64,000 nt of DNA from Pontibacter coccineus (GTDB lineage: Bacteria > Bacteroidota > Bacteroidia > Cytophagales > Hymenobacteraceae), in the NCBI RefSeq assembly GCF_030546575.1, contig NZ_JAUOTN010000003.1, positions 310,001 through 374,000 of the forward strand, read 5' to 3'. Of the stretch, positions 6,274-55,931 are shown one piece after another (position 1 is the stretch's first letter; every line of letters starts with the position of its first letter). Made by a program: the position numbers and the translations under genes. The notes below the pieces were generated by a model that was given only the letters and a program-made list of their open reading frames with translations, searched no databases and had not been told where the DNA came from.

Positions 6274-6356
6274 TGTCATCTCGACGAAAGGAGAGATCTG
6301 AATTTTTCCAAAACCGGAACCCTATTCAGGATTTCTCCCTAAGGGTCGAAATGACA
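6274..6356. repeat. GIY-YIG-associated repeat family, paired inverted copy
   Basis: The left arm (6274-6302, beginning TGTCATCTCGA and ending GAGAGATCTGAA) is answered by a right arm (6325-6356, GGATTTCTCC to TCGAAATGACA) in inverse orientation, with a loop of about 22 bases. Both arms match the termini of the GIY-YIG element at 42573-42973. Confidence 0.8.
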
Positions 6357-41924: not shown

Positions 41925-42578
41925 CTATACCTTTCGGAAGGCCCTGGCCTGTACCAAGCCGCCGTAAAAAGCTGCGGAGGCCTGCAACTGCAGCGGTTGT
42001 CTGGCAAAATGCTCACTAAAGTCAGGTAGTCGGGAGGCTTTCACGTCGCTCACCAATCCGAAAAAACCATACATGCTTTTGAGCAGTAAGCGCTGCCAAA
42101 CCGGGGCCGGCGCTTGGGCTGGCCATAAATCACTGAAAAGCCAGAGCCCCTGCGGGCGCAATGCTGCGCACAACCGATCCATCAGGTATAGCAGACGCTC
42201 ATCCGGGAAAAGATCGAGCAGGAAAGGCGTGAGGATCACGTCGAACCTTTCATTGGGCTGCAGGCCATTTTCGTCGCCTAAGCGAAAGTCTATCCTGGGG
42301 AGATCAGAAGTTTGATTCGCTACGCGCCGCTGGGCCAGTTGCAGCATTTTAGGCGAAACTTCCAGGTAGGTCACTTTCACCAGCGGCTGCCGTTTCAGCA
42401 ACTGCTCCAGCAGCCACCCGGAGCCTCCTCCGATCAGCAATACTTTTGCCTGTTCAGGTATAAGAGACAAGTGTTCTGTCTGAGCCCGCCGCAACGCATT
42501 GCCAAATACTAGCCGCGAAAGGCCATCGTAGACTGGGGCAATGCGATCGAAATTGGTGTTGCTTGCGGTCCTTGTCAT
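41925..42578 (-). CDS. Class I SAM-dependent methyltransferase, start inside a repeat
   Basis: A 217-residue cytosolic methyltransferase. It begins MTRTASNTNFDRIAPVYD, typical of UbiE-like enzymes, with motif I VLLIGGGSGWLLEQLL, motif II VTYLEVSPKML, GDENGL for the adenine and LTPFLLDLFPDE after motif IV. Substrate unknown; its relatives methylate small lipophilic molecules. Oddity: the ATG at 42576-42578 lies within the terminal inverted repeat of the GIY-YIG element (TCGAAATGACA). The upstream promoter must therefore be inside or beyond the element. Confidence 0.88.
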   Translation of the reverse strand: MTRTASNTNFDRIAPVYDGLSRLVFGNALRRAQTEHLSLIPEQAKVLLIGGGSGWLLEQLLKRQPLVKVTYLEVSPKMLQLAQRRVANQTSDLPRIDFRLGDENGLQPNERFDVILTPFLLDLFPDERLLYLMDRLCAALRPQGLWLFSDLWPAQAPAPVWQRLLLKSMYGFFGLVSDVKASRLPDFSEHFARQPLQLQASAAFYGGLVQARAFRKV

Positions 42579-42973
42579 TTCGAACGCTAGTGAGAAATCT
42601 GGGAGGATAAAAAGTTATTCATTCCAGTCTTTAACTTCATCATTTAGCTGAGTCCATTCAGGATTGAAACTACGAATTAATTCCTCCTTTTTCCTTCTAC
42701 CCCATTTCTTTAATTGCTCTTCACGATCAATGGCATGTTGCACATAGGTGAAACGTTCATAGTAGACAAGATGGTAACAAAAATAACGTCCTGCAATAGA
42801 ATTTGGATTACTGGCACGTCAAAACGTGCTCATCCATTCTACGTGGGAGATCATTGGTCATGCCTATGTAAAGCGCAGTCTTCTTGGGGTTTGTAGTAAT
42901 ATAAACAAAATAATTGTGGCTAATCATGCACTTGTTTTTCACTGCAGATTTCTCACTTGCGTTCGAAATGACA
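42573..42973. mobile_element. 401-bp element with near-perfect inverted termini carrying a GIY-YIG gene remnant
   Basis: The termini (42573-42601 and 42945-42973, 29 bp each) match in inverse orientation at 28 of 29 positions; each begins TGTCATTTCGAAC and ends GAGAAATCTG when read inward. The interior is a broken GIY-YIG nuclease gene. The element fills nearly the whole gap between the methyltransferase start and the cinA stop (10 bp remain). No target-site duplication was seen. Short versions of the termini recur at 6274, 31909, 46910, 53126 and 55850. Confidence 0.75.
42615..42927 (-). pseudogene. GIY-YIG nuclease, frameshifted pseudogene
   Basis: Read on the minus strand from ATG at 42925-42927: an N-terminal part with FVYITTNPKKTALYIGMTNDLPRRMDEH, the GIY-YIG catalytic core (YVYI/LYIG and Arg of RRM), then a stop after VLTCQ. 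Changing frame around 42815-42820 restores the rest: NPNSIAGRYFCYHLVYYE, then AIDREEQLKKWGRRKKEELI and FNPEWTQLNDE, the standard C-terminus of small (about 95-residue) URI-type endonucleases, ending at 42615. One indel thus breaks an otherwise intact gene. Host function of this family is unknown. Confidence 0.85.
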
Positions 42974-42982
42974 GAAAAACGA

Positions 42983-43474
42983 TCAGCGATTATAATGCTC
43001 CTCTACAATTCCTTTGAGCTTTTCGAGCACGTATTCGGTAAATTGTTTCAACATACTTTGGCCGTTGCCTTTGAACACTTCCCGGAACTCCTCCGCTTTG
43101 CCATCATACAGGAAGGAAACGAAAATGGTGCCCACTGGCTTTTCCGACGTTTCGGAGCCTCCGGCACCGGCAAGCCCCGTAGTGGCGACACTGATATCAG
43201 CATTCAGCGCTTTCTTCAGCCCCATCACCATCTCGTTGGTTACCTGCTGCGACTCGGCGGTGTAAAGGTTGAGCGTGTCCTGCTTTACGCCCAGGAGTTT
43301 TTTCTTGGCTTCGACATTGTATACCACCAGGCTACCGATCAGCACATCGCTGCTGCCTTTGGCTTTTACCAGTTCAGAGGACAGCATGCCAGCGGTGCAA
43401 CTCTCGGCAAAGGCGACGGTCAGGCCATTGTCTTTCAGCATCTTGGTCAGTTCGGTGAGATCCGTTTGATTCAT
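42983..43474 (-). CDS. CinA C-terminal domain family protein (nicotinamide-nucleotide amidase)
   Basis: A 163-residue protein corresponding to the stand-alone CinA/PncC amidase domain, which converts NMN to nicotinate mononucleotide for NAD recycling. The family hallmarks are TVAFAESCTAGMLSSEL (with catalytic Ser), GSLVVYNVEAKKKLLGV and the ATTGLAGAGGSETSEKPVGTIFV block. Cytosolic. Possibly co-transcribed with thpR, whose stop lies 33 bp upstream. Confidence 0.93.
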   Translation of the reverse strand: MNQTDLTELTKMLKDNGLTVAFAESCTAGMLSSELVKAKGSSDVLIGSLVVYNVEAKKKLLGVKQDTLNLYTAESQQVTNEMVMGLKKALNADISVATTGLAGAGGSETSEKPVGTIFVSFLYDGKAEEFREVFKGNGQSMLKQFTEYVLEKLKGIVEEHYNR

Positions 43475-43507
43475 AGGGTTATATTGACTTCAGTTTAGGG
43501 GTGATTC

Positions 43508-46909: not shown

Positions 46910-46938
46910 CAGATATCTCATGATATTCGAGATGACAG
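46910..46938. repeat. Single arm of the GIY-YIG-associated repeat
   Basis: CAGATATCTCATGATATTCG then AGATGACAG aligns with the right terminus of the 42573-42973 element. A left arm was not clearly found. Confidence 0.6.
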
Positions 46939-55849: not shown

Positions 55850-55931
55850 ATCATCTCGACAGTAGGAGGGATCCGGATCATTTCAAAGCCTGTACAACAG
55901 TTCAGATTTCTCACTGGCGTTCGGAATGATA
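55850..55931. repeat. GIY-YIG-associated repeat, paired inverted copy
   Basis: Left arm TCATCTCGACAGTAGGAGGG (55850-55879) and right arm CAGATTTCTCACTGGCGTTC (55903-55931) face each other around a 23-base loop; the right arm matches the 42945 terminus almost exactly. Confidence 0.8.

Follow-up and report, generated by a model that had tools for sequence, protein, structure and literature searches.

A REP-associated GIY-YIG nuclease with a RAYT-like layout: a decayed gene unit in Pontibacter and a candidate partner of CGTC-like repeats

Introduction

Among the described systems closest to the locus analyzed here are the RAYT (TnpA-REP) genes with their REPtrons and REPINs, in which the gene is flanked by hairpin REPs carrying an unpaired tag, the REP type is specific for the enzyme, and gene-free REP pairs are dispersed. 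The enzyme is an HUH/Y1 tyrosine nuclease and the tag is GTAG; according to the accessible part of the source, TnpA-REP recognizes REPs in single-stranded form and cleaves them, the GTAG tag being a determinant (PMC8266576). The CGTC-tagged REPs form another class, reported from five phyla in a 2013 survey and taking in the Rickettsia RPE and the Neisseria repeats. As far as the available portion of that survey goes, these REPs "apparently lack a dedicated transposase", and CGTC repeats adjoin transposase genes in only a few, fortuitous cases (Di Nocera et al., 2013; PMC3733652).

The nuclease gene described here has the layout of the RAYT genes in all three respects named above, but it codes for a GIY-YIG nuclease and the tag of its repeats is TGTC or CGTC. 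With the CGTC-tagged REPs, as the accessible text presents them, these repeats have in common the CGTC/TGTC/CCTC tag, a stem that starts with AT, the arrangement as pairs in opposite orientation and some of the organisms; whereas no transposase is associated with the repeats of the survey, a GIY-YIG gene is the partner here. The protein has the fold and the size of the UPF0213/YazA proteins, one of which (1zg2) is its closest match by fold. However, yazA is found in two Bacillaceae records in the same gene order without REPs, and a conserved AI-REK...NP pattern belongs to the REP-associated clade. With the GIY-YIG homing endonucleases of the I-TevI type it shares the catalytic domain, but the REP-associated protein is only about one GIY-YIG domain long and its gene has REP borders. 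We found no earlier report linking GIY-YIG genes to REPs in the open-access PMC literature, preprints excluded, which does not prove that none is in print; no word beginning with "GIY" occurs in the part of the 2013 survey that was available (PMC3733652), nor does any beginning with "GIY", "nuclease", "transposase" or "RAYT" in the available part of the RepRanger paper of 2025 (PMC12306157). Our best reading is that this nuclease, RAYT-like in layout but unrelated in fold, cuts at these REPs and probably spreads them, both cutting and mobilization being inferred.

Results

A broken GIY-YIG gene between two inverted REPs

The window (the whole stretch of 64,000 nucleotides that was analyzed, G000:C6:310001-374000, from a genome of 4.66 Mb in 12 contigs) contains a 401-bp unit. 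An earlier note, made from the sequence alone, had described this unit as a small GIY-YIG gene, broken by one frameshift, between 29-bp inverted termini matching at 28 of 29 positions, and had reported the termini without the gene elsewhere in the window; all of these elements were recovered (Table 1). The arms are 29 nt each, 97% complementary and spaced by 343 nt, and the tag of the left REP points outward from the unit. In the DNA fold each end consists of an unpaired TGTC, a stem starting with AT, a loop and a short tail. The gene is free-standing between its REPs. Its N-terminal piece scores 30.5 bits with PF01541 in the Pfam search (cut-off 22.6), and because the family profile matches in two overlapping frames, the second of which has no stop, a single frameshift accounts for the break. 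The gene-free sites in the window are a REP pair, a single hairpin, which is the weakest of them, and a diverged copy of the terminus. The looser structural detector, applied to the window alone, gave 5 matches against 3 in the reversed window and has therefore limited specificity. A known Rfam element was rejected, there being no Rfam match at E <= 1 in 42000-43500.

Table 1. Positions of the 401-bp unit, its gene and the gene-free REPs in the window
Feature	Position	Strand	Description and evidence
Left REP	42573..42601	+	Unpaired TGTC tag, hairpin ATTTC..GAAAT with internal GA/GA mismatch, tail CTG; inverted repeat, genome pattern, DNA fold
Right REP, inverted	42945..42973	-	One mismatch to left REP; inverted repeat, genome pattern, structural detector
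REP-associated GIY-YIG gene, N-terminal part	42784..42942	-	PF01541 match 42811-42942; family profile positions 1-53 on 42784-42927
REP-associated GIY-YIG gene, C-terminal part, other frame	42633..42818	-	Family profile positions 37-98, no stop
REP pair without gene	6274..6356	+ and -	REPs 6274-6300 (+) and 6328-6356 (-); structural detector
Single REP-like hairpin	46912..46937	-	Structural detector only
Diverged terminus copy	55903..55929		93% over 27 bases; sequence match (G000:C6:365903-365929)

The unit ends are not chance matches, since the REP pattern has 23 matches in genome G000 and the reversed pattern none, and since two REP patterns gave 0-203 and 0-65 matches each in 41 genomes of the genus, the reversed control remaining at 0 in 41/41. 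Many REPs of the genus form pairs whose tags point outward, with a spacing of about 40-60 bases. The pairing of the three inner stem bases was scored for every [CT]GTCAT with an ATC at hairpin distance near the genes: the triplets are complementary in 288/415 (shuffled mean 41.9, maximum 64 in 1000 shuffles) and comprise 15 types, so that the stems of the REPs co-vary. The fold of the single window REP (5+2 bp with an internal mismatch, 4-nt loop) is no more stable than those of shuffles (z = -0.23); the folds of a REP pair and of a Shinella REP (9 bp, 5-nt loop) are. A type A REP (see below) folds into 5 bp with a 3-nt loop.

Measured against the description of the CGTC-tagged REPs in the accessible text of the survey (PMC3733652), the Pontibacter REPs have the unpaired CGTC/TGTC/CCTC tag, the stem beginning with AT, and the many copies, often as pairs in opposite orientation. 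They lack the stem of 8-9 bp with a loop of 4-5 nt, their stems being shorter or mismatched, as well as the CCA tail, in place of which they have CTG, CTT or CTA; CCA is the tail of most alpha- and gammaproteobacterial REPs that we saw. For these two reasons we regard the Pontibacter REPs as CGTC-like but not as strict members of the class.

The protein is a conserved GIY-YIG nuclease

A Pontibacter relative of the window protein was modelled by AlphaFold2 with a mean pLDDT of 95.3. The predicted fold is closest to the UPF0213 protein BH0048 (1zg2, E 1.1e-3), followed by Slx1 (E 0.03 and up), and the closest solved chains by sequence are 1zg2 and 1ywl. Residues Y9, Y20, G22, R30, H34 and E69 show no variation among 39 relatives; on the catalytic roles that we assume for the invariant GIY-YIG residues (Y, Y-x-G, R and E), the active site has been kept. 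With a domain over the cut-off and the conserved Y, Y-x-G, R and E, the protein qualifies for the GIY-YIG superfamily (PF01541). No named NCBIfam family was over threshold, and the group I intron endonuclease family, at 18.9 against 56.05 bits, was discarded. The type A clade, the one tested, is under purifying selection, with a median dN/dS of 0.056 (33 of 153 pairs, those with dS between 0.05 and 2).

REPs accompany one clade of small GIY-YIG genes, and their type follows the clade

Small GIY-YIG loci were collected as the best matches of 59 genomes, so that weaker small GIY-YIG genes there are outside the sample. A tree was made of 71 of 79 such loci from genome G000 and its relatives in Pontibacter and its order; the eight left out as broken or misregistered (L011, L015, L043, L056, L076, L081, L090 and L093) have a REP near in five cases and none at L056, L076 and L081. 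From 420 bases before to 660 after the domain start, a REP was found in 40/41 rows of the clade of the window gene, with L083, whose flanks were available, as the sole exception, versus 2/30 rows of other small GIY-YIG proteins, ten of which form the clade of another type. The first flank scoring dropped matches with a CC tail; this filter lowers the second figure to 1/30 (L073 being the difference), and without it the clade remains at 40/41. On the tree, the REP-flank label changes 3 times (shuffled mean 23.1; 0/500 shuffles as low), and at control loci, uvrC or DnaQ-type GIY-YIG, any REP is found within 5.4 kb in only 2/32. The association with GIY-YIG genes that the earlier note had proposed to look for with the 29-bp terminus is thus present in the genome and its relatives, and its absence elsewhere, which would have refuted the proposal, did not materialize. 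(Strand lists, coordinates and per-genome counts were transferred to scripts by hand.)

At loci with REPs on both sides, the nearest ones form a simple inverted pair with outward tags in only 34/67, so that the gene often stands among REP pairs and is not the sole cargo of one pair. In 21 aligned type A loci, the left ends coincide in 19, at or beside TTTGTCAT, and the right ends in all 21, at or beside ATGACAAA. The sequence outside these ends is unrelated at several distinct sites; one type A locus has flanks common to several species. No nuclease match over 100 bits was obtained in 11/41 genus genomes, among them G027, G028 and G032 with 73-99 REPs. The median REP number is 49.5 in the 30 genomes with the nuclease and 16 in the 11 without it (one-sided p = 0.018, uncorrected for kinship), and the modestly higher number where the nuclease is present is only suggestive.

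The kind of REP also goes with the gene. The genes with type A REPs (TGTCATCCTGnAAGGATCTT) are a single clade of 18 in the 71-protein tree, and all seven labels require 10 changes on the tree versus 36.5 when shuffled. As vertical descent alone could yield such clustering, REP types were compared inside single genomes: in the eight that hold type A together with other clades, 17/17 genes have the REP type of their own clade. If each of the 17 genes had drawn its REP randomly from the pool of its genome, log10 P would be -5.83; this figure is overstated, because several of the 17 represent a single locus shared by sister species and because the protein motif that identifies genes of type A was picked after the tree had been seen.

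The association extends to several phyla

A scan with one genome per species was evaluated for the best 80 of 565 confirmed stretches, nearly all from Bacteroidota, four of them from Pontibacter (at least one of the four on a contig also present in the genus set); a Balneola and an Anaerolineaceae were included as well. Among these best 80, a REP lies within 500 bp of the gene in 61 and on both sides in 44 (57/76 and 40/76, respectively, outside Pontibacter). REP density at the same loci is 4.2/kb within 250 bp of the gene versus 0.03/kb at 1.5-2.5 kb, and the reversed sequences gave 10 matches versus 278 in the true ones. The strict detector found no REP within 500 bp at 19 of the best 80 loci.

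In a plasmid collection, 18 loci were examined out of 36 records found. CGTC/TGTC/CCTC REPs or a close variant flank the gene at 13/18: Azospirillum, Novosphingobium, Sinorhizobium (two), Shinella (two), Rhizobium CIAT894, Neorhizobium, Sphingobium, Aeromonas, Neisseria, Planktothrix and Spirosoma. For Novosphingobium and Sphingobium the count rests on long inverted repeats (CGTCGCCC and CGTCACCC variants) that the strict detector missed. In R. tumorigenes and Photobacterium, REPs begin only about 460 bases downstream of the gene, and the flanks available in the collection have none at the Bacillus yazA, Radiobacillus or Acetoanaerobium loci. The REP-gene-REP layout therefore also occurs in other Bacteroidota, in Alpha-, Beta- and Gammaproteobacteria and in a cyanobacterium, and organisms named for CGTC REPs in the available part of the survey (PMC3733652) have the nuclease gene beside REPs here, namely A. 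lipoferum, N. aromaticivorans, S. meliloti and Neisseria.

For IMG/VR the detector was made to accept AC stems and CCTC-like tags in addition. The loci, some of which are near-copies, were divided by us into close relatives (at least 44% identity) and distant GIY-YIG genes (at most 36%). A REP lies within 500 bp at 26/49 of the former versus 2/22 of the latter. Of the 23/49 close loci without a REP in that span, 15 were inspected, and 10 of them have an inverted repeat of at least 17 bases. We regard the association of the gene clade with REPs across phyla as near certain.

At two Hymenobacter loci (L213 and L217) another inverted repeat, of 12 and 15 bases (GAAGGACCTTAT...), borders the gene; the strict detector missed this repeat, which is possibly a diverged REP type.

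Occupied and empty sites

The window site lies between a methyltransferase gene and a CinA-like gene and was compared in 24 of the 41 genus genomes. Four of the 24 (G000, G029, G005 and G011) have the unit with the gene there, which by eye has the same direction in G000, G029 and G011 and is reversed in G005; the G005 copy is open, that of G011 is open over profile positions 1-94, and that of G029 is damaged. In G017, G015, G010 and G009, REP ends surround shortened inserts, with a C-terminal gene remnant still readable in G017 and a decayed left REP, recognized by eye, in G017, G015 and G010. G028 has a short REP pair, and 15/24 have no REP at this site. The methyltransferase ORF at 41925-42578 (- strand), as listed, has its ATG start inside the left REP (42573-42578, TGTCAT on the opposite strand), and insertion of the unit may have supplied it with a new start codon; at the empty site of G016 the N-terminus of the methyltransferase differs.

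Both states were also found outside the genus. On plasmid AZO_p3 of A. lipoferum 4B the unit lies between sufB and sufC of the suf cluster, its gene being flanked on both sides by a REP pair; four Azospirillum relatives have the sufB-sufC intergene without the unit, and six further records match the query except in the unit part. In Sphingobium, seven records cover the gene, which is missing from this position in four others. Sphingobium TomTYG64 has a solo palindrome (L325, 940-1085) where the unit would stand, and it looks as if the left tag had been joined to the right hairpin; our data cannot decide whether a deletion produced the palindrome or whether it represents the state before insertion. 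Several gene copies occur per genome at different sites, some of them broken. The type A copies within G029 are 81-89% identical, and hence no very recent jump is seen.

The earlier note had proposed comparing occupied with empty sites to define the ends of the element and any target duplication. Occupied and empty sites are at hand, and the ends of the aligned type A loci are sharp. Neither the Azospirillum sufB-sufC nor the Pontibacter L089 insertion yielded a clean junction against an exact empty site, as the surrounding intergenic DNA has diverged, and the Rhizobium CIAT894 site has no counterpart in the plasmid collection. No target duplication was detected in 158 distinct outward REP pairs: direct repeats of 3 to 10 bp occur in 0-2 pairs per length, and at no length do they exceed the maximum of 500 shuffles. 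For this reason an ordinary DDE-type transposon, IS or MITE is disfavored; old copies could have lost a target duplication. A pyrimidine directly precedes the tag in 92% of cases, and there is a tendency for the inverted repeat to continue for another 2-3 bases (22/158 match inverted over 3 bases, shuffled mean 8.9).

Y1 transposases and REPs

A RAYT or IS200/IS605 element would bring a Y1 transposase (PF01797) beside the REPs, and this was not seen. Genome G000 has no Y1 match, and at 30 Y1 loci, taken from more than 100 places listed with a maximum of one per genome, a REP of the present kind lies within about 500 bp at none (0/30); a RAYT is on these grounds disfavored as the mover for genome G000. 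Seven of the 41 genus genomes have no Y1 match, yet they hold 2-93 REPs.

Discussion

We propose, with a probability of roughly 0.6, that the 401-bp unit represents one degraded copy of a REP-gene-REP arrangement and that the nuclease of about 100 amino acids is the dedicated partner of TGTC/CGTC REPs, whose binding, cutting and spread are inferred. The earlier note had likened the unit to RAYT genes with their REPs, as an autonomous-type unit with short derivatives but with another nuclease fold, and this likeness holds well: REPs are near the genes of the clade and rarely near other small GIY-YIG genes, the ends are sharp, REP pairs and internal-deletion derivatives exist, and sites are found with and without the gene. 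Since the nuclease clade predicts which tag-and-hairpin repeat adjoins it, the nuclease most likely acts on that repeat, and enzyme and REP are likely a cognate enzyme-substrate pair, for which there are no binding or cutting data.

How the nuclease might spread REPs can be outlined by analogy with TnpA-REP and Slx1. It would recognize the tag and the hairpin in single-stranded or extruded DNA and would nick or cut at the folded REP; host repair or replication of the breaks, with another REP copy as donor, could then give rise to new REP-gene-REP units and REP pairs. GIY-YIG enzymes hydrolyze DNA and are not known to keep a covalent link or to rejoin what they have cut, and rejoining must therefore be left to the host. 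If breaks were repaired between REPs, this would also explain why the gene is found in either orientation at one site, and spread through host repair moreover fits the lack of a target duplication, the different REP subtypes at one site and the internal-deletion derivatives. Neither cleavage nor movement has been observed. That the nuclease mobilizes REPs was a hypothesis in the earlier note and is an inference here, to which we give about even odds.

The evidence can also be read in other ways. These REPs may be spread by other means, with the GIY-YIG protein acting as a free-standing homing endonuclease that inserts a copy of its own gene into REPs after cutting them. GIY-YIG is a classic homing fold, and a parasite of this kind would suit the REP type specific to each clade, the insertion in either orientation at one site and the existence of REP-rich genomes without the gene. 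What makes us doubt it, without dismissing it, is that no other enzyme has so far been tied to these REPs: the Y1 loci examined have none nearby, genomes without Y1 matches have them nevertheless, and the CGTC repeats beside transposase genes are few and fortuitous in the accessible text of the survey (PMC3733652). Whether REPs are moved by the nuclease or whether its gene homes into REPs spread otherwise is not decided.

A host-domesticated enzyme seems less probable again. Such a housekeeping or regulatory nuclease would trim or resolve REP hairpins in the manner of Slx1, with the REPs at its own gene serving self-regulation, and it would be at home with the purifying selection on type A (median dN/dS 0.056, 33 pairs), with the one type A locus whose flanks are common to several species, and with UPF0213 and Slx1, a structure-specific nuclease, as the closest solved folds. 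It is at odds with the patchy presence of the gene (11/41 genus genomes without a match over 100 bits), with several copies per genome at different sites, with broken copies and with presence and absence at one site. Finally, small GIY-YIG genes and REPs are both mostly intergenic and might simply gather in the same DNA. We give this hardly any credence, as the other small GIY-YIG genes of the same genomes are mostly without REPs (2/30 rows), REP density drops more than 100-fold from the gene edge to 1.5-2.5 kb (best 80 of 565 stretches), and REP type matches clade inside genomes.

The nuclease has a strong claim to be considered the enzyme so far lacking for a large class of dispersed bacterial repeats. 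The 2013 survey, so far as its available text goes, left the maker of the CGTC REPs open, and the nuclease is a concrete, testable candidate that has the specificity to be expected of a cognate enzyme. If it is indeed the partner of these REPs, two unrelated nuclease folds would each serve tagged hairpin repeats, an informative case of convergence, and a function would be suggested for proteins whose only annotation is "GIY-YIG nuclease family protein". A wider proposal, for and against which we see the chances as balanced, is that of a second, independent REP-dispersal system in several phyla, in which a GIY-YIG nuclease recognizes the CGTC/TGTC hairpin and, through break repair, multiplies REP-gene-REP units as well as gene-free REP pairs, with no transposase and no target duplication. 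If correct, this would explain the CGTC REP superfamily, among them the alphaproteobacterial repeats and those of Neisseria, which we take to be dRS3.

Other small GIY-YIG proteins came to light in the course of the analysis. A second clade in Pontibacter (L047, L058, L059, L065, L075, L084, L085, L086, L101 and L113) is REP-less, and its upstream translations, for example VIGSTPIFSTK, suggest that several members stand directly after tRNA genes; that such translations represent tRNA genes is our assumption, and the clade is perhaps a tRNA-targeted element. A third small GIY-YIG protein, matching at about 42-60 bits, was found in most of the 41 genus genomes, about one in each, and may have a housekeeping role.
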